This document shows, piece after piece, positions 32,100 to 48,180 of a stretch of DNA of 64,000 nt. The DNA comes from Micromonospora sp. HM5-17 (GTDB lineage Bacteria > Actinomycetota > Actinomycetes > Mycobacteriales > Micromonosporaceae). Made by a program: the position numbers and the translations under genes. The notes beneath the pieces were generated by a model, which had not been told where the DNA came from, did not search any database, and worked only from the letters and a program-made list of their open reading frames with translations. The stretch covers positions 62,001 to 126,000 of the forward strand of contig NZ_RJWA01000010.1 in assembly GCF_003762835.1 (NCBI RefSeq), written 5' to 3'. How positions within the stretch are numbered: position 1 is the stretch's first letter; each line of letters starts with the position of its first letter.

Positions 32100-32323
32100 C
32101 CCCCGTCGACAATCCGCCGGCGCCGCTCGACGTCGGCCGGGTCGCACACGTGCGCGAAGTCGGTCACGGGCGGCTGGTCGCCGTCCCACAGATCACCCGA
32201 CCAGCCGCAGGTGCGGCACTCGTGCCACCGCAGCCGGGTGCAGCCCTTGCCGCGCCCGGACCGCTGGCACGCCATCCCGGAAAGCGCCACCAGCTCCGGG
32301 GCGGGCGCGGTTGGGGCGGTCAT
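32096..32323 (-). CDS. Small zinc-finger-like protein between portal and MuF (75 aa)
   Basis: CQRSGRGKGCTRLRWHECRTCGWSGD and a final HVCDPADVERRRR supply a Cys4/His zinc motif. ATG at 32,323 in ATGA overlap with the portal gene; its stop overlaps the MuF start. Role unknown, perhaps assembly. Confidence 0.65.
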   Translation of the reverse strand: MTAPTAPAPELVALSGMACQRSGRGKGCTRLRWHECRTCGWSGDLWDGDQPPVTDFAHVCDPADVERRRRIVDGG

Positions 32324-34170
32324 GTCGGCACCCGCTCTCCGTACACCGTGGCCATCAGGTGTTCGCGCAGCTCGGCCGGGTCGTGCTTCGCCCCGGTCAC
32401 CAGCAGCCGGCCGACGTACCCGGTCAGGGCGGCGGTCAGCTTCTCCGCGTCGACCCCGAGCCGCGACGCGACGTGCGGCACCGTCGCGAACGCGCCCTGG
32501 AGCAGCCGGGGCACGGACACCGGCGTCGCCTGCTGCACGGTGTGCAGCTCCCACGGCGCCAGGTGGTCGTGCCGGTACCGCTGGCGGCCGACCGCCCGTT
32601 TCCCGGCCGTCTCCAACGCCCGCAGCACCAGCGCCTCGCACGCGGCGATGAACGCCTCACCCGGCTCGGCCGCCGAGGCGGCGATCGCGTTCCGCTCGGG
32701 CGGGCCGCGGTCCTCGGTGTCGCCGGCCGGCGGCTCGCTGACGGGCGGCTCCTCCTCGGCGGGTGGGGTGGCCGGCGGCGCCGGGGCGAGAGCAGCCGGG
32801 TCGACCGTGACAGCCACGCCGGCAACCTGTAGGAGCCGCTGCACGAGCAGCGGGCCGGCGGCCGGCACGGTACGCACGATCTCCAGCAACCGGCGCAGCT
32901 CCCGCTCCTCGTCGGTCGGCTTGTCCTCGTCACCGAATCCGGTCTCGCGGCGCAGCGCATCGCCGGACAGCTCCCCGGCCGCGTACAGGTCCTTCGCGTC
33001 GGCGCCCTTGTCCGGGGTCTGCGTCAGCTCGCTAGTGTCGTACCAGACCACCCACCGCTTCGGGTCGTCGACGACGCCCTCCAGCGCCGGCCACAGCATC
33101 TGCTGGGTCAGCGCCGAGCAGAACAGTTCCAGCTTCGACTCGACGTGGTACTTGATCGTCGCCTCGTCGGTCATCCAGGCGCCCCAGTGGTTCGCCTGGG
33201 TCATGCCGAGCAGCATCTCCGGCGGGGCGTCGAGGCCGAGCGCGAGCCGCCGGATCGCCCCGTCGAGCATCGACGGAACCGCCGCCGACAGCTCGGTGGC
33301 GAACGACAGCAGCCGGGCCTTCTCCAGGTGCTCGGCGGGGCCCTGCACGACGATCGGCACGAGGGCGGCCACCGAGTCGCGGTCCTTCACCGCGGTGGTC
33401 ATCGCCTCGGTCAGCGTGGCCAGGAACGACGACACCCCATCCTCGGAGTTCTCTTCCTGCTCGGCGGCCGTGAATGACAGTTCGTTGGGCAGCAGCAGAA
33501 TCCCGGCCCCGGCGAGCCGGGAGTCGATCTGCGACTGCACGTACTGGGTCAGCCGTTCGATCAGCCGCAGCACCCGCCGGTTCGCCTGCACCTGCGACCT
33601 CGGCAACGCATGCCGCCGCGGGCTCGGCACCCAGATCCGTACGATGACCGTCTCCTCCGGGACGAGCTCGCGCGGCCCGGCGCCCTGGTCGAGCACGTAC
33701 GTTCCGGACTTCTCCGTCAGCTCGTCGATCGACGCGATGAACCAGGTCTCCCGGTCGGTGGCGTTCCCGTTCTCGTCGCGCTCGAGTTCACCGATCAGGT
33801 AGCACTCGCCGGGCACGCCGAGCTGGATCCCGGCGTCGTGCAGCAGCTCGGCCTGCTTCGCCGGCCCGCCGAGCAGCGTGTCGTTGACGCCGGCCGGTGC
33901 CTCGTTCGGGGACTCGACGGGGCGGCCCTCGTCGTCGATCTGCGTGATGTACAGCCGGGTGCGGCCCATCGCCTTGGCCACTAGGTCGACGACGTAGGCC
34001 AGCTCGCCGCACTCCTCGTAGTGCCGCCAGGCTTCCTCCTGCCACTCCTGCTTAGTGACCTTCCGGATGGTGCCGCTGGACTCGTAGCGCATCTTCGCCG
34101 CGGAGGCGACCACGGCGGTCGCCTTACCCACCGCGCTGCTCGCGTTCGGCTTCGTGCCCCACCACGCCAT
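32320..34170 (-). CDS. Portal protein (616 aa)
   Basis: Ring protein at the DNA entry vertex. KWEEAWRHYEECGELAYVVDLVAKAMGRTRLYI-type N-terminus, RIWVPSPRRHALPRSQVQANRRVLRLIERLTQYVQSQIDSRL (helical stem), SMLDGAIRRLALGLDAPPEMLLGMTQANHWGAW (the classic portal motif) and a C-terminal crown rich in Pro/Glu. It lies in the expected place between terminase and MuF, although two plus-strand genes now separate it from the terminase. Confidence 0.92.
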   Translation of the reverse strand: MAWWGTKPNASSAVGKATAVVASAAKMRYESSGTIRKVTKQEWQEEAWRHYEECGELAYVVDLVAKAMGRTRLYITQIDDEGRPVESPNEAPAGVNDTLLGGPAKQAELLHDAGIQLGVPGECYLIGELERDENGNATDRETWFIASIDELTEKSGTYVLDQGAGPRELVPEETVIVRIWVPSPRRHALPRSQVQANRRVLRLIERLTQYVQSQIDSRLAGAGILLLPNELSFTAAEQEENSEDGVSSFLATLTEAMTTAVKDRDSVAALVPIVVQGPAEHLEKARLLSFATELSAAVPSMLDGAIRRLALGLDAPPEMLLGMTQANHWGAWMTDEATIKYHVESKLELFCSALTQQMLWPALEGVVDDPKRWVVWYDTSELTQTPDKGADAKDLYAAGELSGDALRRETGFGDEDKPTDEERELRRLLEIVRTVPAAGPLLVQRLLQVAGVAVTVDPAALAPAPPATPPAEEEPPVSEPPAGDTEDRGPPERNAIAASAAEPGEAFIAACEALVLRALETAGKRAVGRQRYRHDHLAPWELHTVQQATPVSVPRLLQGAFATVPHVASRLGVDAEKLTAALTGYVGRLLVTGAKHDPAELREHLMATVYGERVPT

Positions 34171-34173
34171 CGG

Positions 34174-34500
34174 CTACTCCTCCGGCTCGGCGCGCACGAG
34201 CAGGCCGGTCGCATGCGACAAGGCCAGGGCGACGGCGGGGACGTCGACCCACCAGTGCCCGGACCAGCGAGGCACGGCCGACAGCGCCCACCAGGCGGCG
34301 GCGGCCGGGAAGGCGACCCACACCGACAGGCACCAGCGGCAGAACAGCAGGTACGCGAACGAGCTGCCGTCGGGCAGCCGCCGCACCGCCGCCTCGCGGA
34401 CTCTGCGAGTGATCTCGTCGGCGGCGACCAGCCGGGTCAGCCGGGCGACCACGAATAGCACCACCACGATCTCGATCATCGCCGCCACAGGTATGAGCAT
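34174..34500 (-). CDS. Membrane protein of the DUF1360-like type (108 aa)
   Basis: Three membrane segments, with RLTRLVAADEITRRVREAAVRRL and FCRWCLSVWVAF, the Cys motif of DUF1360-like proteins seen in actinophages near the portal. ATG at 34,500 preferred; another at 34,479. The upstream region is the left edge of the restriction-modification insert, so the original start region may have been altered. Ends 3 bp before the portal start. Confidence 0.65.
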   Translation of the reverse strand: MLIPVAAMIEIVVVLFVVARLTRLVAADEITRRVREAAVRRLPDGSSFAYLLFCRWCLSVWVAFPAAAAWWALSAVPRWSGHWWVDVPAVALALSHATGLLVRAEPEE

Positions 34501-34619
34501 AAGCCGAGGCACTGCGGCCGGACATGCAACGGGCATCGGCCATGTGCTGAGGATCAACAGAGCACGAATGCGCAAGCCGGCTAGGGGATGGCGACTCAAA
34601 GCGGAACAGGCTGCCCAGT

Positions 34620-37163
34620 ATGCTCACCGGCGTGGTGACGGACCCTCAGCGAGATCTAGTGATCGATGGCCTTCTAGCAAGGACCGAAGCCCGACGTGGT
34701 GCGGCGATGGCACTGCTTAACCCCGTCGAGCAGCGGGACCTGGGCCAATTCTTCACCCCTCGCGTGGTGGCCGAGCGCATCGCCGCAGAGCCGAGCCTGC
34801 CAAAAAGTGGCGTGCTCAGGGTGCTGGATCCGGGTGCCGGGTCCGGATCGTTGTCGGCCGCGTTGGTTGCCCGGGTGCTGCGAGAGCGGCCCGCTCTAAC
34901 GGTAGGGGTCACTGCGGTTGAACTGGCATCGGGGCTGCATGACACGCTGCGTCAGACCTTGGAAGACTGCCAGGAGACTGCGCGCGCCCTTGGCGGCCAG
35001 TTCAATTACGAGCTCGTCGCGGCGGATTTCATTCCATGGGCCGCCGCCCGGGTCTCCGGCGTGCTCGACCTGGTAGGTGAGCAGCCACGGTTCGACCTGG
35101 TGATCCAGAACCCCCCGTACCGGAAGGTAGCTCGCAGTTCGGCGGTGCGCCGTCACCTTCAATCTGTCGGATTAGACGTTCCGAACCTCTACGCGGCATT
35201 CCTCGCGCTCGGCGTGCACCTTCTCACCGAGGGTGGCCAACTCGTAGCCATCACCCCTCGTAGTTTCGCTAATGGCACATACTTCCGGCAATTTCGCAAG
35301 CAGTTCTTTTCCTTACTGGGCGTCGACCGTATCAACGTTTTCCAGGAACGAGGCGCACTGTTCGCCGATCTATCGGTGCTGCAAGAAAACATCATCTTGA
35401 CAGGCACGCGGGCTCGCCGCTCAGAGAAAGTCACCATTGTCACCTCACGCGGCTACGCTGACCCAACCCACGAGCGGCTAGTCACCTACGAGGACATCAT
35501 CCGGCCAGATGATCCCGAATCGTTCCTCCATATCCCTACAGACGTCGAGGACGATCGAGCGGCCGATATCGTCGCCGAACTCCCTGCCACGCTGGCCGAT
35601 CTCGGTCTCAACGTGTCAACCGGACGGGTCGTCGACTTCCGCGTCAAGGATGCGCTGCGAGCCATGCCGACTGCTGACACAGTGCCGTTGATCTATCCTG
35701 GTCATTTACAGAACGGTCGGGTGAATTGGCCACTGCCTGCGTACCGCAAGCCAAACGCCATCGTCGCCGACGCATCGACCGCCAGCCTGTTGCTACCCGC
35801 TGGTTATTACGTCCTAGTGAAGCGGTTCTCGGCCAAGGAGGAAACCAGGCGCGTGGTCGCCTCCGTATATCGGCCCGCCGACGTCCCGGCAGATCGGGTC
35901 GCGTTCGAAAACCACCTCAACGTCTTCCATCGTGATGGCAACGGCTTGGACGAGCCACTTGCGGTCGGTCTGGCGATCTGGCTCAACTCCAACGTGCTGG
36001 ACACCCACTTCCGCCAGTTCAGCGGCCACACGCAGGTCAATGCAACCGATCTGAGAAACCTTCGCTACCCTGATGCCGCGCAGCTGCGCCGCCTCAGCGA
36101 GAACGTCCGACCAGGCGAGTGGCCAAGCCAAGATGAGATCGACGCGCTTGTGCTGCAGCACGTTCTTGGCGGGGCCGACACGACGGAACAGGGAGGCACG
36201 GTGCCGCAGGACCAGGTAGCAGAGTCAGTGCAGCAGGCCCGCCAGTTGCTCGGTCGGCTCAACTTCGACGCAGAGCGCAGCAACGAGCGGTCAGCGCTGG
36301 TGCTGCGCGCCCTGCTCAACCTACTGCCCGACCAGCCGTGGGAAGCCGCTCAGAACCCCATGTTGCGCACCGTCGAGATCATGGACTTCCTACGGCAGCA
36401 CTACGGCCGCGATTACAAGCCCAACACGCGGGAGACGATCCGCAGGCAGACGTTGCACCAGTTCGCCGCTGCCGGCCTGGTTCTACAAAACCCCGACCGG
36501 CCCGACCGACCTGTCAACTCTCCTCGCTGGTGCTATCAGATCACCGACCGAGCTGTCGCTCTAATTCGGACCTTTGGCACACCCCGGTTCGCCGACGAGC
36601 TTCGTGCGTACCTGGCCGATCTCCCAGGCCAGCTGGAAGCCTACGCGGCGGAGAGGACCATGCGACGCATCCCGGTAACCCTCCCCGGAGGGCAAGAGAT
36701 TACCCTCAGCCCGGGCGGCCAAAACGAACTCCTCGACGCCATAGTCAAAGACTTCTGTAGCTACTTCACTCCGGGCGGGATTGCCCTATACGTCGGTGAC
36801 GCCGATGAGAAGTGGGCATTCTTCGACAACGATGCGCTCAAAGCGCTCGGCGTCACAGTTGACAAGCACGGCAAGATGCCCGACCTCGTCGTGTACATGG
36901 AAGACAAGAACTGGCTCGTTCTTCTAGAGGCAGCGTCCAGCCACGGACCCGTCGACGCCAAACGCCATGCCGAGTTGCAGACTCTCTTCGCGGGCTCCAC
37001 GGCCGGACTGGTCTTCGTCTCCTGTTTTCCCAGTCGCAAGGAGATGCGGAGGTACCTGCAGGAAATCTCGTGGGAGACCGAAGTATGGTGCGCCGACAAC
37101 CCAACGCACATGATCCACTTCAACGGCGAGCGGTTCCTCGGCCCATACCTGGCCCAGCCGTAG
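34620..37163 (+). CDS. Single-chain restriction-modification enzyme: Eco57I-like methyltransferase fused to BsuBI/PstI-like endonuclease (847 aa)
   Basis: N-terminal half: GQFFTPRVVAERIA (about 42-55), SAM motif DPGAGSGSL (70-78), NPPY (164-167), then an Eco57I-type target-recognition region. C-terminal 150 residues are a BsuBI/PstI endonuclease (from about 699: GGQNELLDAIVKDF, LYVGDADEKW, KMPDLVVYMEDKNWLVLLEA, SHGPV, TEVWCADNPTHMIHFNG), with PD 754-755 and E near 770 as the PD-(D/E)xK site. These activities are normally two proteins. Codon use is less GC-rich than its neighbours and it is opposite to the late operon, so it is a cargo gene. ATG at 34,620; a GTG at 34,635 is possible. Confidence 0.88.
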   Translation: MLTGVVTDPQRDLVIDGLLARTEARRGAAMALLNPVEQRDLGQFFTPRVVAERIAAEPSLPKSGVLRVLDPGAGSGSLSAALVARVLRERPALTVGVTAVELASGLHDTLRQTLEDCQETARALGGQFNYELVAADFIPWAAARVSGVLDLVGEQPRFDLVIQNPPYRKVARSSAVRRHLQSVGLDVPNLYAAFLALGVHLLTEGGQLVAITPRSFANGTYFRQFRKQFFSLLGVDRINVFQERGALFADLSVLQENIILTGTRARRSEKVTIVTSRGYADPTHERLVTYEDIIRPDDPESFLHIPTDVEDDRAADIVAELPATLADLGLNVSTGRVVDFRVKDALRAMPTADTVPLIYPGHLQNGRVNWPLPAYRKPNAIVADASTASLLLPAGYYVLVKRFSAKEETRRVVASVYRPADVPADRVAFENHLNVFHRDGNGLDEPLAVGLAIWLNSNVLDTHFRQFSGHTQVNATDLRNLRYPDAAQLRRLSENVRPGEWPSQDEIDALVLQHVLGGADTTEQGGTVPQDQVAESVQQARQLLGRLNFDAERSNERSALVLRALLNLLPDQPWEAAQNPMLRTVEIMDFLRQHYGRDYKPNTRETIRRQTLHQFAAAGLVLQNPDRPDRPVNSPRWCYQITDRAVALIRTFGTPRFADELRAYLADLPGQLEAYAAERTMRRIPVTLPGGQEITLSPGGQNELLDAIVKDFCSYFTPGGIALYVGDADEKWAFFDNDALKALGVTVDKHGKMPDLVVYMEDKNWLVLLEAASSHGPVDAKRHAELQTLFAGSTAGLVFVSCFPSRKEMRRYLQEISWETEVWCADNPTHMIHFNGERFLGPYLAQP

Positions 37164-37227
37164 GCATTCGCCGAATCTCGGCCCGGGACGATGCTCGAAC
37201 ACATAACTACCAGCGTGTCTGGCGGCA

Positions 37228-37262
37228 AGGGGCGGGTCACGGCATCGCCGTGACCCGCCCCT
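37228..37262. terminator. Terminator of the restriction-modification gene
   Basis: A 16-bp perfect stem (AGGGGCGGGTCACGGC with GCCGTGACCCGCCCCT) around ATC, 65 bp after the stop. Its symmetry would also stop transcription arriving on the minus strand. Confidence 0.8.
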
Positions 37263-37266
37263 CTCG

Positions 37267-37287
37267 CTAGTCCGCCAGGCGGACTAG
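37267..37287. repeat. Stray copy of the 21-bp origin iteron
   Basis: CTAGTCCG-CCAGG-CGGACTAG is a perfect member of the iteron family in the initiator-like gene at 3.0-3.3 kb, 34 kb away. It overlaps the stop of the gene at 37,284 and sits at the edge of the restriction-modification insert. Confidence 0.7.
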
Positions 37288-37550
37288 CCGCCGCACTCAG
37301 TGCCGTCGCAGCCGGGCCGCCGGCAGCGCACCCGGTCCCACAACTCGTCCGCCAACCACGCCAACACCAGGCACGGCTGGGAGCCGTCTGGCAGCGGGCC
37401 GCACACGATGTACTCCAGGTCTGGCCGCCCGTACAGCGTCAACCCGGTGTCCGGCGGCACCGGGTGCCGCATCGCCGCGGTTACCTTCTCGACCGGTGCC
37501 CCGCAGCCGTCGCAGGTCACCGGCCGGCCGGACGGCGTCACCTCAACCAC
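37284..37550 (-). CDS. Small zinc-ribbon-like protein (88 aa)
   Basis: Two Cys pairs: VTCDGCGAPVEKV near residue 12 and VRCRRPGCDGTECGG at the end. Function unknown. It overlaps the resolvase-like gene by 8 bp. The last codons lie in the palindrome 37,267-37,287. Confidence 0.6.
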   Translation of the reverse strand: MVEVTPSGRPVTCDGCGAPVEKVTAAMRHPVPPDTGLTLYGRPDLEYIVCGPLPDGSQPCLVLAWLADELWDRVRCRRPGCDGTECGG

Positions 37551-38436
37551 GGCGCCGCTCCGCCGTTCCGCCGGCCGGCGAATCGGCCAGGGTCGCCGAC
37601 AGGAGCAGGCTCGTACCGGCCAGCTGCACCCCGGGGCCGACGATCGTGCCGCCGGCCTTGCGGACCTCGGTGATCCGCGCGAACACCTGCCGGCCGTGGC
37701 CGAGCCGCTCCACGGACGGCACCGCGATCACGTCGGCGCGGCCCTCAACGAGGTCGGCGACCGCAGCAGACCAGCCACCGGGACCGGTGTGCTCAGCGAC
37801 CACCGCGTACCCGGCCGTGTCACACCAGCGCCGCAGCGTCCGCGCCGCCTCCTCCACGGCGGCCCGGCCGCGCCCCGCCCGGCTGAACAGGACGGCGCGG
37901 CGCTGCACCCACCGCTGCCGGTCGACATCCCACCGGGCCTGCTCGTACAGCCGCGACAGGTCCGGCCCTGCCCCGGGCTCGTCGGGACCGCACCGCACCC
38001 AGCCGGCCGCCTGGTCCCACCGCACATACCAGCCGAACTCGCGGCACTCCGGGTGGCCCGGCCAGTCACCGGTCCACACCGCCTCGCCACAGTCGTGCGG
38101 CTCTGCACGGGCGAACTCCCGGCAACCGCGCCGCGCCAGGCCGGTCAGCAGGCACGGCGCGATGGCGCAGTCCTCGCGGTGGGCCTGGCCGACCCACCGG
38201 TCGCATTCGGGGCAGGCGGCGTGCAGCAGCCGCTCACCGCTGGTCATCGTGCGCTCCTTCATCATCTCGTCGAACACCACGGCAGCCGCCTCCCGCGCAT
38301 CGGGGGACATCTGCCGCCACCGCGCGGCCGCGGAGCCCGCGGGCACCGGGCCGTCCGCCTCAGCGGAGGCCCGCACCTGCTCGAACCAGGCGCGGGCCTC
38401 CTCGGCTGAGCGACGAGTCAGCCGGCTCTCGCTCAC
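37543..38436 (-). CDS. Protein with a degenerate resolvase-like domain (297 aa)
   Basis: Residues about 185-275 (RAVLFSRAGRGRAAVEEAARTLRRWCDTAGYAVVAEH, GGWSAAVADLVEGRADVIAVPSVERLGHGRQVFARITEVRKAGGTIVGPG) resemble the N-terminal resolvase fold of serine recombinases. Where resolvases have YxRVS the protein has FSRAG, so the catalytic serine appears missing, and the DRLGR motif is ERLGH. The N-terminal part has Cys/His pairs (CPECDRWVGQAHREDC). The GTG at 38,436 overlaps the previous stop (GTGA). Probably a structural or regulatory descendant, not a recombinase. Confidence 0.6.
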   Translation of the reverse strand: MSESRLTRRSAEEARAWFEQVRASAEADGPVPAGSAAARWRQMSPDAREAAAVVFDEMMKERTMTSGERLLHAACPECDRWVGQAHREDCAIAPCLLTGLARRGCREFARAEPHDCGEAVWTGDWPGHPECREFGWYVRWDQAAGWVRCGPDEPGAGPDLSRLYEQARWDVDRQRWVQRRAVLFSRAGRGRAAVEEAARTLRRWCDTAGYAVVAEHTGPGGWSAAVADLVEGRADVIAVPSVERLGHGRQVFARITEVRKAGGTIVGPGVQLAGTSLLLSATLADSPAGGTAERRRG

Positions 38437-38581: not shown

Positions 38582-38664
38582 TCATCCAAGATCATTTGCG
38601 CCAGTTGATTATGGAAGGTCAAAGACGTTGCGTCCCTGCGGGAGCCCGGTCCACGATCGACCGC

Positions 38665-40002
38665 ATGCCTACGCTCCGAAACCGCCGGCTTGAACAGCTC
38701 CTCGGTGGAGCAATCGACGAGACGCTGACCTACGCGCAGGTGAAGGGCCTCATCCCGCACACCGCCGAAGGCCCAGACCTGGACTTCAAGCGCGACACCT
38801 ACACGAGCAGCGACCGAGACCGAAAGGCCCTGTGCACCGATGTCGCCGCACTCGCGAACGCCAACGGCGGCATCCTCGTCCTCGGCATGGACGAGGACGA
38901 GCAAGGCCGCGCGGCAACCGATACCGGCGTCGTCATCAGCGACGACGAGCGGCGCCGGCTCCGACAGACAGTCGTCGGCAACATCCAGCCGACACCGACG
39001 TTCGACATCCTCCCCATCGAGGATCCCGATCGTCCAGGTACTGGCTTCCTCGTCATCTGGGTCGCGCGGTCGGCGACGGCGCCACACGCCTACGTCGCTC
39101 AGAACAAGTCGATGCTGTACCCGAAACGGATTGGTACTGAGACTGCCTGGTTGTCGGAGAGCGAAGTGGCCGAGGCGTACCGGGCACGGTTCGCCGGCTT
39201 CGCAAGCCGGATCGAGGAAGCAGCCCGGATCGAAGCGGACTTCGTTCAACGCCTCGCACCAGACGAGCTGTTCGTCGTCGTCACCCTCGTCCCGGACCTG
39301 CCAGGGTCTGCCACCATCAACAGCGCCGCGCTGAAGGCGTTCCAGATGCGTAACGCGAGCTGTGAAGTGGGCGCCTTCGGTATCCCAGTGGGCAAGTTCC
39401 ACCGATCGACAGTGCGCCGACGCTGCTTGGTAGGCACCGCATCGCTCGAGAGAAGCAAGCCGTACTCGCGTCTTGCGTGCGAGCTGCATGAGACCGGCAG
39501 CGGCGTGTTCGGCTGCGCGAAGATCGAGTCGCGTCCAGATGTCAAGGATCTGAAGGTCAAGCTCGCTGACAACCTGTGGCTCACACTTACCATCGGCACC
39601 GGCCTCAACCTTCTCGCCCGCCATGCGCGTGATCAAGCCGCAGCTGGCGGTCTGGCCACCGTCAGGACCACCATCTGGCCGGTCACGTCTGAGGTTCCAG
39701 TCTCGCTGGTCTCCAACGTCGGTTGGCGAAATGAGCCGGTCGGCGGCGAACTGGTAAGCGAGCCGCCGGTCGCCGAGACCGTCGCCGACATCGACGACTT
39801 GAGCGCTGGAGGGGCAGGTTTGGCAGCGGCAACCCACCGACTCGCTAGCGAACTGTTCCAGGCGTTCGGGGCAGCGGAGGCCGAAGGCGTGACCCCAGAG
39901 GGAGCAATCCGCCTTCCCTACTGGCATCAGGGCTGGCATGCCGAGATAAGCCGCTGGGCCGGGAGCTCTGGGGTTGAGGTGCTTCGGGAGGCCAACGCCT
40001 GA
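38665..40002 (+). CDS. AlbA_2 (Schlafen-like) ATP-binding domain protein, cargo gene (445 aa)
   Basis: Residues 32-80 (HTAEGPDLDFKRDTYTSSDRDRKALCTDVAALANANGGILVLGMDED) are the AlbA_2 signature: acidic/basic DFK motif, then the conserved ANANGG loop. The rest is a mixed alpha/beta C-terminus without a recognised domain. Such proteins appear in phage-defence islands and as prophage cargo. It is on the opposite strand, just beyond the terminase gene, and appears to have cut the promoter at 38,565. ATG at 38,665 with no clear ribosome binding site; ATG at 38,596 would extend it by 23 residues. Confidence 0.75.
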   Translation: MPTLRNRRLEQLLGGAIDETLTYAQVKGLIPHTAEGPDLDFKRDTYTSSDRDRKALCTDVAALANANGGILVLGMDEDEQGRAATDTGVVISDDERRRLRQTVVGNIQPTPTFDILPIEDPDRPGTGFLVIWVARSATAPHAYVAQNKSMLYPKRIGTETAWLSESEVAEAYRARFAGFASRIEEAARIEADFVQRLAPDELFVVVTLVPDLPGSATINSAALKAFQMRNASCEVGAFGIPVGKFHRSTVRRRCLVGTASLERSKPYSRLACELHETGSGVFGCAKIESRPDVKDLKVKLADNLWLTLTIGTGLNLLARHARDQAAAGGLATVRTTIWPVTSEVPVSLVSNVGWRNEPVGGELVSEPPVAETVADIDDLSAGGAGLAAATHRLASELFQAFGAAEAEGVTPEGAIRLPYWHQGWHAEISRWAGSSGVEVLREANA

Positions 40003-40010
40003 TCTACCTG

Positions 40011-41408
40011 TCATCGCGCGTCCGCCTGCAGGCGAGCCCGGTGACCGAGTGGCGACGCAACGACGGCCCGCCGAGTTTCCTTGCTGCGCAGGTACGTCAC
40101 CCCGTGCACGAGCGCGTCCAGCCGGTCCGGCGAGTCCCCGGACTCCGGCGTCCAGGTCGTCAGCTGGTCCTCTAGCGCCGGGAACGCGCCGACGTGGTGC
40201 ACCCGGGGCGGGTCGACCTCGTACCGGGCCGCGACCGGCTCCGCCCGGACCCGCTTGCTCGCCCGGGGCTGCACCACGTCGATCGGCGGGTCGCCGCCGG
40301 GCAGCAGTCCCTCCCGCTGCATCGCGATCCAGGCGTCGACGAGGATGTCCCGCATCCACACCGACGAGCCCTCGACGATCACCACGTCGGCGTCGACATC
40401 GATGTAGCACTGCCAGATCCGGCGGCCGGCCGCCATGCCGGCGATCTTCATCGACCGGTCGGCCAGCACGTAGTGGTCGCCGTCCTCGCCCCGGCCCACC
40501 GCGACGATGCCCGTCTCGTCGCTCGTCTCCGACACCGTGTCGGCCGGGTCGACCGACACCACGGTCCGGACCAGGGGCGGCACGTCGTCCTTGTCGACCC
40601 GGCCGGCCTCGATCCATGCCGACTTCCACAGCGCGCCCTCGACGTCGGTCAGCAGCTCGGCGTCCAGCTCCTGCCGGCCGAGCCGGGTGCCGCCGTACTG
40701 CTCCAGCAGCTCCTCCAGCGCCTCCGGGCTCAGGTTCGCCGCGTTGTCCAGCGTCCGGCCGCGCGTGATGACCACCCGGGGGCGCCTGGACCGGGCCTTC
40801 TGTTTCGCCGCCCGCGTCAGCAGCTTCTTGATGTGCGGCAGCGGCTTCGGGGTCGTGCTGATGACCATGCGCGGGTTCTCGGCCTCGCGCATGCAGAACC
40901 AGAGCATGTCGAACACGCCCTGCGCCGTCTGCACCGGCCAGGCGGCGTACTCGTCGCACCACACGCCGTCGAAGTCGTAGCCGCGCAGCACGTCGGGGTC
41001 CTGCGCGCCGAAGCCGCGGATGATCGACCCGTTGCGGAGCATCACGTAGGGCTCCGACTTGTTGAACGTCGCCACCTCGCGAGGCGGAATGACCGCGAGG
41101 AGCCCGGCCCGCCGGGCGGTGAAGCAGACGTTGTAGACCTCGCGGTGCGTCTTCGCGACGACCGCATAGTGCCCGCCCGGCCGCGCGGCGGCCCACTTCC
41201 GGACCGTCTCCGCGCCGGTGCGGGTCTTGCCGAAGCCGCGACCGGCGAGCAGCATCCAGATCCGGTACCAGGCGGGCTCCAACTGCTCTGGCCGGGCGTG
41301 CCGGGGCCAGTCGTAGCGCAGGTTGCCCTGCACCTCCGAAACCACGCGCAGGTAGGCGGCCAGCTCGGCGTCGGACATCAACGCCGGATCCGGGTACGCC
41401 AGCAGCAT
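40011..41408 (-). CDS. Terminase large subunit (465 aa)
   Basis: ATP-driven DNA packaging motor and nuclease. Walker A GRGFGKT (56-62), Walker B DGVWCDEYAAW with catalytic Glu 153, and the RNase-H-like nuclease starting with VVSVDPAD (Asp 288) and ending with the DALVHGVTYL region. Full length for the family. Three bp separate it from the upstream membrane gene; nine bp separate its stop from the convergent AlbA_2 gene. Confidence 0.95.
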   Translation of the reverse strand: MLLAYPDPALMSDAELAAYLRVVSEVQGNLRYDWPRHARPEQLEPAWYRIWMLLAGRGFGKTRTGAETVRKWAAARPGGHYAVVAKTHREVYNVCFTARRAGLLAVIPPREVATFNKSEPYVMLRNGSIIRGFGAQDPDVLRGYDFDGVWCDEYAAWPVQTAQGVFDMLWFCMREAENPRMVISTTPKPLPHIKKLLTRAAKQKARSRRPRVVITRGRTLDNAANLSPEALEELLEQYGGTRLGRQELDAELLTDVEGALWKSAWIEAGRVDKDDVPPLVRTVVSVDPADTVSETSDETGIVAVGRGEDGDHYVLADRSMKIAGMAAGRRIWQCYIDVDADVVIVEGSSVWMRDILVDAWIAMQREGLLPGGDPPIDVVQPRASKRVRAEPVAARYEVDPPRVHHVGAFPALEDQLTTWTPESGDSPDRLDALVHGVTYLRSKETRRAVVASPLGHRARLQADAR

Positions 41409-43054: not shown

Positions 43055-43966
43055 TCAGCTGGCCAGGTAGTCGGCGGCCAGCAGTTCCAGGGCGCGCCAC
43101 CGCTGGTCGGCGGGGACCTCGCCCTTGCGGACCATGCGGTCGACGGCCCGGGCGAGCACGGCGCCGGCGTCGGCCGGCATCGAGCGGGTGCCGAGGATCG
43201 TCTCGATGGGGACGAGGCGTCGAGCGTCGACGGGCTCGCTGGTGTCTGGGTCGAGCCAGGCGTCCCGCAGCTCGTCGAGGTGCCGCTCGAACACCGCCAG
43301 GATGAGGCCGAGGGCGGTGGCTACGTTGCCGACGTTGTGGGCGCCGTGGGCGGTTGCGAGGGCGTCGAGGGTGGTCTCGTAGTCGGCGTAGGCGGCGAGC
43401 CAGCGGGCGTCGGCTTGGACGAGCTTGCGGGCCTCGTCGAACGAGGCGCGGGCGGCGTCCAGCTCGTGGGGCAGGAACACGAGCTGGACGGTGGCGAAGT
43501 CGAGGTTGGCCTCGCTCAGGCCCTCCAGGTCGACCTGGGCGAGCAGGTCGAGCTGCTTGTCGTCGAGGCCGGAGTAGGCCCGCCAGTCGACGTCGTCCAG
43601 CTCCTCGTACAGCTGCCGCAGCGTGGCCGGGTCGTCCTCGCCTTCGATCGCGTTGTGGGACAGCTGCAGCGCGACCTGCCGGGCGCGGGACAGCGGCTGG
43701 TCGACCACGATGACGTCGACCTGCTCCAGGCCGACCTCGCGGGCGGCCATGATCCGGTGGTTGCCGGACAGCACCACCATCCGGCCGGTGGCCTGGTCGT
43801 TCCACACTAGCGGTGTGCTGGTGAGCGCCCCGTCGCGGCGTATGTTGGCCACGAGCCGGTCGAACACCTCTTTGCGCATGAACCGCGCGTTCACCTCGAC
43901 GAGCGTGAGCTCGCGCGGGTCGACCGTCTCGCGGCGCAGGTTCAGCGGTCCCTCGTCGTCGCTCAT
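43055..43966 (-). CDS. ParB-like (ParB/sulfiredoxin fold) phage protein (303 aa)
   Basis: N-terminal ParB nuclease-like domain: VEVNARFMRKEVFDRLVANIRRDG, PLVWNDQATGRMVVLSGNHRIMAAREVGLEQVDVIVV (GNHR box) and VALQLSHNAIEGEDD. The C-terminal half is helical and acidic. ATG at 43,966, ATGA overlap with the modification gene. Genes of this kind often sit beside phage DNA-modification enzymes, so the pair probably acts together on phage DNA. Confidence 0.85.
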   Translation of the reverse strand: MSDDEGPLNLRRETVDPRELTLVEVNARFMRKEVFDRLVANIRRDGALTSTPLVWNDQATGRMVVLSGNHRIMAAREVGLEQVDVIVVDQPLSRARQVALQLSHNAIEGEDDPATLRQLYEELDDVDWRAYSGLDDKQLDLLAQVDLEGLSEANLDFATVQLVFLPHELDAARASFDEARKLVQADARWLAAYADYETTLDALATAHGAHNVGNVATALGLILAVFERHLDELRDAWLDPDTSEPVDARRLVPIETILGTRSMPADAGAVLARAVDRMVRKGEVPADQRWRALELLAADYLAS

Positions 43967-46065
43967 CGCGTGTCCTTTCCGTGGCGGCGCTTCCACTCCG
44001 TCAGCGCCTCGTCGAGGGTCCAGCCGCCGAGCGGGCCGCCGTACTGGAGCTGGTATCGGTGGATGCCGTCGGCGGCCGGCTCGCTGCGCTTCTGCAGCTT
44101 GACGCCGGGGATGCCGCGCCCGTACTTCGCCGAGTTCGGGTTGTTGGTGAACGCGGTCGTCGACCAGGCGGTGAGCCGCTTGCTGAGCGAGCGCTGGAGC
44201 AGCAGTTGGGCCTCCCGGGAGGCGGCGGCCATGACGATCAGCTTCGCCAGCCTGCGGTATCGGGTCCACGACACCGGGAAGTCGCTCATCAGGTACGCCG
44301 TTGACGGGTCGTACTTGGGCGGCAGGTAGGCGAACGCGCCGATGATGCGCCCGTCGACGCTGACGCCGCAGGCGAGCAGGGGAGAGCCCGGCAGGATCGT
44401 CTTGGACATGAACTGGCTCCGGATGGCGGAGAACTGGCCGCCGGTGAGCACGTGGATGGCCATGCGGTCGCCGAGGTCCTCGTTGGGCCCGATCTTCGGC
44501 ATGAGGATCGGTGTGACCTGCTGGGCGGGCCGGACGACCCGGCGCGGGCCGGAGGAGGCGTAGACGTAGATCGGCAGGCCGCGGTTGCTGGTTTGCACGA
44601 CGCCGCGCAGCCACGGCCGCAGCTCGTCCCGGGCGATGTGCAGGCCGAGGATCCAGTGTGGCCGGTCGAGGACCGCGGCGATGATTTCCTCCTTGCCGTC
44701 CTCGTCCAGCTCGTTGTACGTCGGCGCCGGCCAGTCGAAGTAGTGGTCTATGGCCGCGAACTGGCTCTCGTAGTCGCCGGTGTTGTGCATGGCGAAGCCC
44801 TCGCCGATGTACGTCCCGGTCGTCGTCGTGATCGACTGGATGGGTCGCTCGCCGAGTGGTTCCACCGCCACGACCCGCACCCGGCAGTTGCCGCGCGACC
44901 GGACGCTCATCTGCTCGATGTCGAGCGCCGCGAGGCGCGAGATCAGCCGTTCGGGGCGCAGCGTGCCGAGCGCCCGCAGGATCGTCGGGAAGCCTCCGGC
45001 GACCTCGATGCCCAGGACTCCGCTCGGCCGCAGCTTCGCGCCGGCGTCGAAGCCGTGCCGCTTCAACAGGTCGATCACCTTGTCGGCCGTCGGTCCGGGC
45101 CGCTGCGACAGCTGAAGCTTCGACGCCTGCCCAATGTGGATGGAGCCCTCGCCGTCAAACATGCCGGCCAGCCACCCGGCCTCGTAGGTGCGGGCCTCCT
45201 CCCAGGTGTCGAGCAGCCGCAGCACGTACGGTGCCTTCTCCAGCAGCTGGTCGGCCCGCACCCAGCGGCGTTTGCCGCCGCTTGTCTTGCTGTCGTACTG
45301 GTCGGCCAGCCATGGGTGGTCGGCGGTGCAGACGATCGAGGTGCCGTCAGCGAGGTGCACCCGCAAGCACTCCTTCACTGCCGGCTCCGACCGGGTGACG
45401 ACGGACCGCCGCCAGCGCCGCAGCCGCATCCCGTCAGGTGGGTACTCGTCGAACGCGAGGAGCCGGTCGCCGGGCCGCAGCTCGCCGCACGGCACCCACC
45501 GCAGGTCCTCGGTCAGCAGCCGCTCGTCGGGTGCGAGGCAGTAGAACGGCGGGAACATCGCCACCGGGGCGTCGGCCGGCACCACGTCGCGTAGGTAGTC
45601 CCGCACGTCGCCGCAGTAGTACGAGCCGAGCCGCAGGGTCAGCGCCTCCAGCTTGGCGACCGTCTTGGCGTGCATGGTCGGGAACTGGCCGATGGTGGCC
45701 CGCACCATCCGCTCGTAGTAGACCCCGGACCGGCCGACGTACTGGAGGAACCGGGTGCCGAGCATCAGCGTGGCGAGCGTGTGCGTCGGCGTGGTCAGGT
45801 ACGGCTCCAGCCAGGCCAGCTGGTCGCGGTGCTCCTCCTTGAGCTGGTAGTCGAGGGGGCGGCCGGCGAGCCACCAGCCCAACGCCGATGAGTACGCCTG
45901 GACGTCGTTGCCGTGGATGGTGCGGTGTTCGCCGGGGCGGGCGTGCAGCGTCCGCTCGATCGTGAAGTTGCCGGAGCAGCCGACGTAGAGGTCGGTGTCG
46001 GGCCACGAGTCGGCGTGCTCGTAGATGATGCTGCGCAGGTCGGCTGGGATGGAGCCGTGGAACAC
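43963..46065 (-). CDS. DNA-modification-like protein with intein: methyltransferase-like N-terminus, GNAT/Mom-like C-terminus (700 aa precursor)
   Basis: Exteins total 447 aa. Residues 20-75 (DLYVGCSGNFTIERTL, HGNDVQAYSSALG) resemble the SAM region of D12-type adenine methylases, and FPPFY plus TGDYE, rejoined after splicing, would be the catalytic motif. The C-terminal extein (LLACGVSVDGRIIGAFAYLP, YRRLAKLIVMAAAS, TTAFTNNPNSAKYGRGIPG) resembles GNAT acyltransferases such as phage Mu Mom. Relatives are, to my knowledge, called putative antirestriction methyltransferases. GTG at 46,065. Coupled to the ParB-like gene, preceded by a tRNA-Gly gene and a 35-bp dyad. Confidence 0.7.
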   Translation of the reverse strand: MFHGSIPADLRSIIYEHADSWPDTDLYVGCSGNFTIERTLHARPGEHRTIHGNDVQAYSSALGWWLAGRPLDYQLKEEHRDQLAWLEPYLTTPTHTLATLMLGTRFLQYVGRSGVYYERMVRATIGQFPTMHAKTVAKLEALTLRLGSYYCGDVRDYLRDVVPADAPVAMFPPFYCLAPDERLLTEDLRWVPCGELRPGDRLLAFDEYPPDGMRLRRWRRSVVTRSEPAVKECLRVHLADGTSIVCTADHPWLADQYDSKTSGGKRRWVRADQLLEKAPYVLRLLDTWEEARTYEAGWLAGMFDGEGSIHIGQASKLQLSQRPGPTADKVIDLLKRHGFDAGAKLRPSGVLGIEVAGGFPTILRALGTLRPERLISRLAALDIEQMSVRSRGNCRVRVVAVEPLGERPIQSITTTTGTYIGEGFAMHNTGDYESQFAAIDHYFDWPAPTYNELDEDGKEEIIAAVLDRPHWILGLHIARDELRPWLRGVVQTSNRGLPIYVYASSGPRRVVRPAQQVTPILMPKIGPNEDLGDRMAIHVLTGGQFSAIRSQFMSKTILPGSPLLACGVSVDGRIIGAFAYLPPKYDPSTAYLMSDFPVSWTRYRRLAKLIVMAAASREAQLLLQRSLSKRLTAWSTTAFTNNPNSAKYGRGIPGVKLQKRSEPAADGIHRYQLQYGGPLGGWTLDEALTEWKRRHGKDTR
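44782..45540 (-). other. Intein with LAGLIDADG-type endonuclease (253 aa)
   Basis: Residues 176-428 of the precursor. Block A: C176 LAPDERLLTEDLRWVPCGELRPGDRLLA. Block B: GTSIVCTADHPWL with the TxxH histidine. One clear LAGLIDADG-like motif AGWLAGMFDGEGSIHIG (296-312). Block F/G: VEPLGERPIQSIT ... GEGFAMHN with His-Asn at 427-428 and Thr 429 as the +1 nucleophile. Insertion after MFPPFY, inside the host protein's catalytic motif, is typical for inteins. Confidence 0.93.
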
Positions 46066-46095
46066 GCGTCACCACCTTCCCCCGTGGCGGCGTCG

Positions 46096-46167
46096 AGCGC
46101 CGGCCAGGGCTCGAACCTGGGCCTCCGCCGTGGAACGGCGGCGTGCCACCAACAGCACTTCCAGCGC
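46096..46167 (-). tRNA. Prophage tRNA-Gly (anticodon UCC)
   Basis: Cloverleaf by eye: acceptor GCGCTGG with CCGGCGC (one G-T pair), D stem GTGC/GCAC with GG in the loop, anticodon stem CCGCC/GGCGG with loop GTTCCAC, T arm CCAGG-TTCGAGC-CCTGG, discriminator T as in bacterial Gly tRNAs. 72 nt, CCA not encoded. It reads GGA/GGG codons and lies 31 bp before the modification gene. Confidence 0.8.
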
Positions 46168-46609: not shown

Positions 46610-47836
46610 CTACCCGACAGCACCCCCCACGGTGCTCAGCTTGTCGACGCCGAGGAAGCCGCCAACGATCCGGCGGACCGGCTCGTGGTGCTTCCGGGTG
46701 GCGTGCACGTACACGTTCAGCGTCGTCGTGACGCTCTTGTGCCCGGCCATCGTCTTGAGCGCTGCCAGGTCCACACCCTCGGTCGCGAGCAGCGTCAGCA
46801 TCGAGTGGCGCAGCCCGTGCATCGTCATCCGGCGGGGCAGTCCCTTCTCCCGCGCCAGGTCGCGGATCTTCACCCACCGGCCCTCGTAGAAGTCCTCGTA
46901 CCGCCAGTGGTTGCCGCGCGGGGCGACGAACACGAACTCGCGGCCTGGCTGCGCGGCGCGTTCGGCGACCAGCTGCATCACCTGGTGCGGCAGCGGCACC
47001 TCCCGGTAGCCCTGCTGCGTCTTCGGCTTGGGCTCCACCACCCACCTGCGGTTGACCTTCCGCAGTACCTGCACGATCTCGATCGTGCCGAGCCTGGGCC
47101 GGACTGCCCGGGGCGGCAGCGCGCTCACTTCGCCCCACCGCAGGCCGGAGGCGAGCTTGGTCAGCAGCAGGTCCGCTGCCTCCGGGTCGACCTCGTACGC
47201 CGCCTCGAGGAAGATCCTCGCCTCGTCGGGGCTTTCCAGGATGTCCCGCTCATGCCGAGCCGCCTCGGGCAGCGGTAGCCCGTCCATCGGGTTGTACGTG
47301 CGCAGCGCTGGCTCCTCGTCCTCGCCCGGCAGGCAGGCGGCCCGGAAGATCGGCACGATCGTCTCGCCTCGGATGTTCGCGATCGTCTTCGGGGACAGTC
47401 CGGCGTCCAGCAGGGCGATCTGCCACTCGCGCATCTCGCGTCGGGTGATCGCGGCGATCGGCCGGTCGCCGAGCCGCGGGAAGACGTGCTTCTCCAGCCG
47501 CTCGAGGTATTTCCGCTTCGTCTCCGGGTGCGGCTTGATGAGGGTGCTCAGCCAGTCGAGCGCGTACTCCCGGAACGTGACCTGGCGCTCCGGCTCGGGC
47601 GTGACTGGAGCGGGTCCGGTACCGGCGGGTGCGAGGTAGCCGAAGCCGTGCTCGTGCAGCTGCTCGGTGGGCGGCATGTGGTCGCCGTTCGCGTCGACGA
47701 GCGCCTTGAAGCGCTTGGCGTCAGTGTGGGTGTCGAACTGCCTGCCGTCCCAGTCGCCGGTGCCGCCGATGCGCCACTTCACCCGCCACCGATGCGTCTT
47801 GCCGTCCTTGTACGTGCGTTTCTCGATCGATGCCAC
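46610..47836 (-). CDS. Tyrosine integrase (408 aa)
   Basis: N-terminal arm-binding domain (ASIEKRTYKDGKTHRWRVKW), SAM-like core-binding domain (FREYALDWLSTLI ... LERLEKHVFPRLGDRPIAAIT), and catalytic domain with SGLRWGEV (Arg), MHGLRHSML (His-x-x-Arg), GHKS (His) and NVYVH (Tyr nucleophile). GTG at 47,836 follows an AGGAGC ribosome binding site; the longer frame would run into the 35-bp dyad. It integrates the phage at the tRNA-Leu gene 260 bp away. Confidence 0.93.
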   Translation of the reverse strand: MASIEKRTYKDGKTHRWRVKWRIGGTGDWDGRQFDTHTDAKRFKALVDANGDHMPPTEQLHEHGFGYLAPAGTGPAPVTPEPERQVTFREYALDWLSTLIKPHPETKRKYLERLEKHVFPRLGDRPIAAITRREMREWQIALLDAGLSPKTIANIRGETIVPIFRAACLPGEDEEPALRTYNPMDGLPLPEAARHERDILESPDEARIFLEAAYEVDPEAADLLLTKLASGLRWGEVSALPPRAVRPRLGTIEIVQVLRKVNRRWVVEPKPKTQQGYREVPLPHQVMQLVAERAAQPGREFVFVAPRGNHWRYEDFYEGRWVKIRDLAREKGLPRRMTMHGLRHSMLTLLATEGVDLAALKTMAGHKSVTTTLNVYVHATRKHHEPVRRIVGGFLGVDKLSTVGGAVG

Positions 47837-47901
47837 TGCTCCTGGTCCTCCACGTGAAGCAGGCGGCCGGATCGCCTCAAAGCCATGCCGCCCGCGCGCA
47901 C

Positions 47902-47936
47902 CTACATGCGCAGCAGTGGGACCGTAGCCGTACATC
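47902..47936. promoter_or_regulatory. 35-bp dyad element, copy 7
   Basis: CTACATGCG on the left, GTAGCCGTACATC on the right; the right arm is well conserved. Lies 66 bp before the integrase start, so the same factor could control lysogeny. Confidence 0.55.
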
Positions 47937-47983
47937 CTGCTGGAGCGCAAAACGCGCCCACGAGCCCGTCGGATGGACGGCTC

Positions 47984-48011: not shown

Positions 48012-48096
48012 TGGCGGCAGCGAACCCAGAAACGATCAAGGCCGCTGACCCGAGTTCTGCCAGGTCAACGGCCTAATTTCTTCGTACCCTGATTGG

Positions 48097-48180
48097 TGTC
48101 CGAGGGGGGACTTGAACCCCCACGCCCTATACGGGCACTAGCACCTCAAGCTAGCGCGTCTGCCATTCCGCCACCCGGAC
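48097..48180 (-). tRNA. tRNA-Leu (anticodon GAG), integration target
   Basis: Acceptor GTCCGGG with CTCGGAC, anticodon stem CTAGC/GCTAG with loop TTGAGGT, long variable arm and T arm GGGGG-TTCAAGT-CCCCC; CCA is encoded at 48,094-48,096. The gene is intact on the chromosome side of the integrase, so attR core probably lies in its 3' half (about 48,094-48,130). The partner attL is outside the window. Confidence 0.93.

Follow-up and report, generated by a model that had tools for sequence, protein, structure and literature searches.

Genomic context of the fused gene

In the window (the whole 64,000-nucleotide stretch of Micromonospora sp. HM5-17 DNA that was analysed), an open reading frame on the + strand runs from an ATG at position 34620 to a TAG at 37163 and encodes a predicted fused methylase-endonuclease of 847 amino acids. 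This gene sits inside the portal-terminase stretch of a prophage. The genes for the portal protein (32320-34170, antisense and beside the fused gene), the large terminase (40011-41408) and the integrase (46610-47950) all lie on the - strand, as do those for the major head protein, the head-tail adaptor and the major tail protein. A 25-bp attachment repeat at the 3' end of tRNA-Leu(gag) was found at 48096-48120 (+), and a second copy is found outside the window, some 8.95 kb ahead of its first position, so that the prophage measures approximately 57 kb. The integrase, the packaging genes and the repeat at tRNA-Leu indicate that the fused gene is cargo of a prophage integrated in a tRNA-Leu gene, and because both flanking head genes are on the - strand, it is indeed directed against the late operon. 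A role as prophage cargo and this orientation had both been proposed in a preliminary description of this DNA. The GC3 of the fused gene is 0.74, compared with 0.84-0.97 in the neighbouring late genes. The prophage is distant from deposited phages, with a portal identity of about 34% at most among the 8 matches listed.

The gene had also been credited with a terminator of its own, and this was borne out in part. A strong, terminator-like 16-bp hairpin (37228-37262, +; -44 kcal/mol, z -8.4) follows the stop codon, but it has no T-run, and a scan for consensus terminators found none on the + strand. A promoter scan of positions 34300-37700 revealed no sigma-70-type site. After the terminator-like hairpin, a second, short one (37264-37290) lies towards a convergent 88-aa frame on the - strand.

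Some other genes of the prophage were noted. The 468-aa gene at 38596-40002 (+), with an AlbA_2 (Schlafen-type) domain and a GC3 of 0.76, ends against the large terminase gene and is a second low-GC3 cargo gene on the + strand of the late region. A 297-aa frame at 37543-38436 (-) had no match in Pfam or PHROGs, and its C-terminal part resembles a resolvase domain, as judged by eye only. The 700-aa protein encoded at 43966-46065 (-) carries phage Dam-like (PF22555) and phage GNAT-like (PF22559) domains, making this possibly a second DNA-modifying gene of the prophage, and a tRNA-Gly(tcc) is located at 46095-46167 (-), within the prophage and near the integrase.

A methylase and an endonuclease in one frame

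There was no internal stop between the ATG and the TAG, and profile searches of the two halves gave matches beyond chance. Pfam identified an Eco57I methylase domain at residues 141-241 (E 8.3e-12) in the first half and both BsuBI/PstI domains in the second. These are the HTH domain BsuBI_PstI_RE_N (PF17728; residues 536-667, 36225-36620 (+); E 4.9e-44, 150 bits) and the catalytic domain BsuBI_PstI_RE (PF06616; residues 684-837, 36669-37130 (+); E 2.8e-58, 196 bits, with the whole profile covered), the latter also placed by alignments of endonuclease (R) sequences and SdaI; both exceed the curated cut-offs of 27 bits. The motifs named in the preliminary description were all found where it had placed them, namely DPGAGSGSL at residues 70-78, NPPY at 164-167, KMPDLVVY at 752-759, LLEA at 768-771 and THMIHFNG at 829-836. 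In the methylase (M) half, which extends over about residues 17-518 (34668-36173, +) according to Pfam, sequence alignment and comparison of the model with CamA, M.BseCI and M.TaqI, motif I precedes NPPY and the recognition region is C-terminal, the order of the gamma class. In addition, G72, A73, G74, G76 and NPPY are invariant in 17 of 17 aligned methylases. The N-terminus of the fused protein is supported by the frames of fused relatives, which begin at like places. These results confirmed that 34620-37163 is a single-frame fusion of a gamma-class N6-adenine methylase, a short disordered linker and an SdaI/PstI-type endonuclease (about residues 531-843), and the earlier proposal of an Eco57I-type methylase and a BsuBI/PstI-type endonuclease in one polypeptide was upheld.

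SdaI (PDB 2ixs) was the sole restriction endonuclease of known structure matched at a small E value (1.3e-74), while the first half showed weak sequence matches to M.BseCI and M.TaqI. An AlphaFold2 model of the fused protein, built from an alignment of 81 rows, had a mean pLDDT of 90.9 and a pTM of 0.68, a value that gives no firm placing of the M half relative to the R half. The only internal gap in confidence is at residues 519-525 (pLDDT <50), in the linker (about residues 515-529; 36162-36206, +). The modelled methylase half aligned with CamA over residues 17-518 (Z 26.4, 440 residues, 3.3 A) and with M.BseCI over residues 34-519 (Z 24.5), the C-terminal recognition part included. The R half aligned end to end with SdaI, a chain of 323 aa with the same HTH and catalytic domains, over residues 535-839 (Z 25.3, 304 residues, 41% identity); SdaI, however, is a separate protein. 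The rmsd of this superposition is 14.9 A, so the two R lobes are placed otherwise in the model than in the SdaI crystal. From the structure alignments of both halves, both enzymes therefore look complete, and in the model each appears to keep a DNA-recognition part of its own, unlike Type IIG enzymes.

A possible internal start of translation

The sequence AGGGAGG (36190-36196, +) resembles a Shine-Dalgarno sequence and lies 4 nt before an in-frame GTG at 36201 (codon 528). Pairing with the anti-Shine-Dalgarno at this GTG was -11.6 kcal/mol, the best of 44 in-frame starts, compared with -4.1 for the opening ATG, and the R gene of two-gene relatives begins at a position matching the fusion linker. 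On these grounds we propose a second reading of the frame, from the GTG to the stop (36201-37163, +), as a candidate free endonuclease of 320 aa; this new feature may represent a nested endonuclease gene.

Sites of this kind were also present in other fused frames. In 14 of 21 distinct fused frames, the 38 codons preceding the conserved R region contain a site of -6 kcal/mol or below, where the rest of these frames would lead one to expect 2.98 (p 1e-8, a value that treats non-independent frames as independent); there were 21 frames here rather than 22, since L158 was omitted as a near copy of L161. The junction sites of fused frames were equal in strength to those at 91 unfused R starts (p 0.46). 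Furthermore, all four fused actinobacterial members have a start preceded by a good site, despite linker residues that are barely conserved among them. The candidate internal start speaks against the assumption of one protein product.

These three observations weigh against the explanation that the full-length fusion is the sole product and that the junction owes its Shine-Dalgarno-like sequence either to a former R gene, as a relic no longer used, or simply to the peptide encoded there, to which we nevertheless give slightly better than an even chance. When the frames were recoded synonymously, with amino acids fixed and their own codon usage kept, the site was no stronger than chance (combined p 0.062 over the 21 frames, 0.059 in another run, and 0.195 for the window gene alone), a result that is no proof of selection for the internal site and suggests that the peptide accounts for much of the Shine-Dalgarno signal. 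Seven of the 21 frames, including all three cyanobacterial ones, have no site of -6 kcal/mol or below. There was also no excess of ATG at the junction (12 seen against 9.4 expected, p 0.17), and TTG, a weak start codon, accounted for 6 of the 20 best starts listed. A comparable case is CR.NsoJS138I, which likewise is a natural fusion of adjacent R-M genes that apparently occurred more than once but has a C regulator as the partner; in the account given of it, other products were sought and not found, and a western blot showed only the full-length protein (PMC3850674).

Because of the recoding result, the TTG starts and the cyanobacterial frames without a site, the reading with two products is put forward as possible but somewhat short of probable. 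Under it, fused PstI/SdaI-type frames would be nested genes that yield the fusion, which would methylate as a monomer, and a free endonuclease, made from a retained in-frame start, which would pair either with another copy of itself or with the fusion. When cutting begins would then depend on the relative amounts of the two products, a translational timer replacing a C regulator. The pair McrB-L and McrB-S offers a parallel, in that translation from an in-frame start within a restriction gene yields a further, shorter product; that is an unrelated GTPase system, however, and such a product, reported there (PMC3874153), is only proposed for the window gene. If the internal start works, the avoidance of self-cutting on arrival of an R-M system would become directly testable by a single silent change.

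Target site and proposed mode of action

The R half shares 56% identity with the R protein of a pair from an E. coli phage, compared with 41% for SdaI, and PstI-like pairs of Stx prophages are reported to methylate CTGCAG (PMC6602927). CTGCAG is therefore the likeliest target, so that the guess made in the preliminary description was reasonable, and both halves most likely act on this sequence or a close relative. We infer that this phage pair and EcoGIII are one enzyme. CTGCAG was weakly depleted in the prophage (8 seen against 17.8 expected, rank 7 of 64 palindromes) and in the host sample (75 against 108, rank 11 of 64). The site of SdaI is CCTGCAGG, which was not depleted in either (3 against 1.9 expected in the prophage, 12 against 11.2 in the host sample). 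These site counts neither favour nor exclude CTGCAG as the target.

Judging from sequence and model, the gene probably encodes a natural fused Type II R-M system of the PstI/SdaI kind, with predicted activities, in which an m6A methylase with its recognition part is joined by a loose linker to a two-domain SdaI-type endonuclease, both halves most likely acting on CTGCAG or a close relative. The methylase half, as a monomer, would methylate both strands of the palindrome and protect the DNA, while cutting would be performed by paired R halves. As cutting would need two R halves, methylation would precede it, and such timing through a monomeric M and a dimeric R has been argued for Type IIC enzymes in a review (PMC12707154). 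The internal start at GTG 36201 may add some free endonuclease. The lysogen would be shielded from incoming phages that bear unmethylated sites, a cargo role like that of EcoGIII of Stx prophages, for which resistance to other lambda-like phages is reported (PMC6602927). EcoGIII is likewise a prophage-borne PstI-like pair with a cognate endonuclease and CTGCAG methylation, but it is encoded by two genes, which in the related E. coli phage locus L031 overlap in another frame.

Relationship to known restriction-modification systems

The fused architecture is already covered by the PADLOC model PDLC03359 (840 aa, 'MTase_II'), which spans both halves (residues 17-844, 758 bits; up to 1167 bits in fused relatives) and is named as a methyltransferase only; we know of no tested activity for it. 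Defence annotation can thus record no more than a methylase where a complete R-M system is present. This filing, and the fact that cutting by the window protein is predicted only, would agree with a gene whose R half has decayed, leaving only a methylase that protects the phage or marks its DNA. We regard such decay as improbable, since the R domain is complete and retains every column invariant across 15 R sequences, and when the fused actinobacterial members are compared, no other part of the protein is as well conserved as R.

Type IIC enzymes are described as combined R-M enzymes with both domains in one polypeptide (PMC4081073), and the domains of the window protein agree with this broad definition, its activity being predicted. 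Type IIG enzymes are described as having both activities on one shared specificity module and an endonuclease that AdoMet stimulates or that depends on it (PMC4081073). One-chain R-M enzymes found in nature are described as making their cut beyond the recognition site (PMC3039593, PMC4081073). One chain does hold a gamma-class methylase and a nuclease in the window protein, but a Type IIG-like enzyme with a single shared recognition domain that cuts away from its site is very improbable, because R is C-terminal, of SdaI type and equipped with a separate HTH domain, and the methylase retains a C-terminal recognition region that belongs to it alone; by domain make-up only, the shared module is absent. 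An engineered counterpart in design is RM.Eco29kI, in which a Type II methylase and a palindrome-cutting endonuclease are both active in one chain, but with an m5C methylase from a different system, and whose phage protection was about 100-fold lower (PMC3039593). Searches of open-licence papers listed none on a natural fused PstI/SdaI-type system, which does not prove absence. In the fusions described here, a pair of the site-cutting Type IIP kind appears to have been joined naturally, more than once and across several phyla.

Distribution and origin of fused systems

Of 396 whole genomes searched across the phylum, 4 had a strong match to the window protein (E <=1e-40). The corresponding figures were 4 of 394 for the class and 9 of 300 for the family, and all three counts include the window's own genome. 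In most relatives M and R are two genes, which often overlap and differ in frame. Scans of viral contigs and named genomes with an alignment of R sequences gathered 159 loci, of which 15 were set aside before counting (2 without R, 8 with R only and 5 whose M and R genes do not share a strand). Among the remaining 144 adjacent M-R loci, duplicates included, M and R were in another frame in 112, in the same frame with a junction stop in 6 and fused in frame in 26; L158, L168 and L169 were taken as fused because their in-frame stop is the true gene end. Since similarity to the query governed which loci entered the set, the figure of 26 in 144 should not be read as the frequency of fusion. The preliminary description stated that M and R of PstI-type systems are encoded separately, which is the usual case and not a rule; the two-gene Type IIP layout of PstI, BsuBI and EcoGIII is not that of the window gene, which is one frame with no stop.

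A tree was built from 115 distinct systems, 22 of them fused, with listed duplicates, identical rows and short fragments omitted. The window gene formed a fused clade with G1117, Saccharothrix yanglingensis and Actinokineospora bangkokensis (support 99; 97 for the window gene with G1117), nested in two-gene actinobacterial systems. This supported clade of four fused actinobacterial enzymes indicates that the window gene is neither an error nor unique. Although most relatives consist of two genes in different frames and some have one frame with a junction stop, an assembly or sequencing artefact concealing a stop or frameshift is extremely unlikely, as the nearest relatives are fused in three further genomes (L178, L048 and L049) and have linkers of similar length. 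Fusions are further present in acidobacterial, cyanobacterial, gemmatimonadal, planctomycete, deltaproteobacterial and gammaproteobacterial records and in viral contigs. The fused and unfused states required at fewest 9 changes on the tree, compared with a mean of 20.6 and a least value of 17 in 200 label shuffles; gain and loss of fusion are indistinguishable on this quick tree, in which 31 of 112 inner branches lack support and are drawn open. Fusion would appear to have arisen several times in PstI/SdaI-type systems, as a repeated minority arrangement.

Scans for close relatives with the window protein only found none in viral contigs or genome contigs, and a search of 35 genomes of the family to which G1117 belongs gave G1117 alone. 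Plasmids yielded no fused form: among 56 records matching at E 1e-60, 45 had a coverage of 80% or more, and in these 45 listed records the match falls into two pieces, with two annotated genes in 44 and no annotation in 1. An extra viral scan for the fused clade yielded no further clearly fused locus; in L201, from the viral scan, M and R are in frame with one stop. L158 and L161 are viral contigs whose fused systems are 97.6% identical to each other and far from the window gene. Judged by eye from the translations, the fused system of Saccharothrix yanglingensis (L048) is flanked by transposase-like frames.
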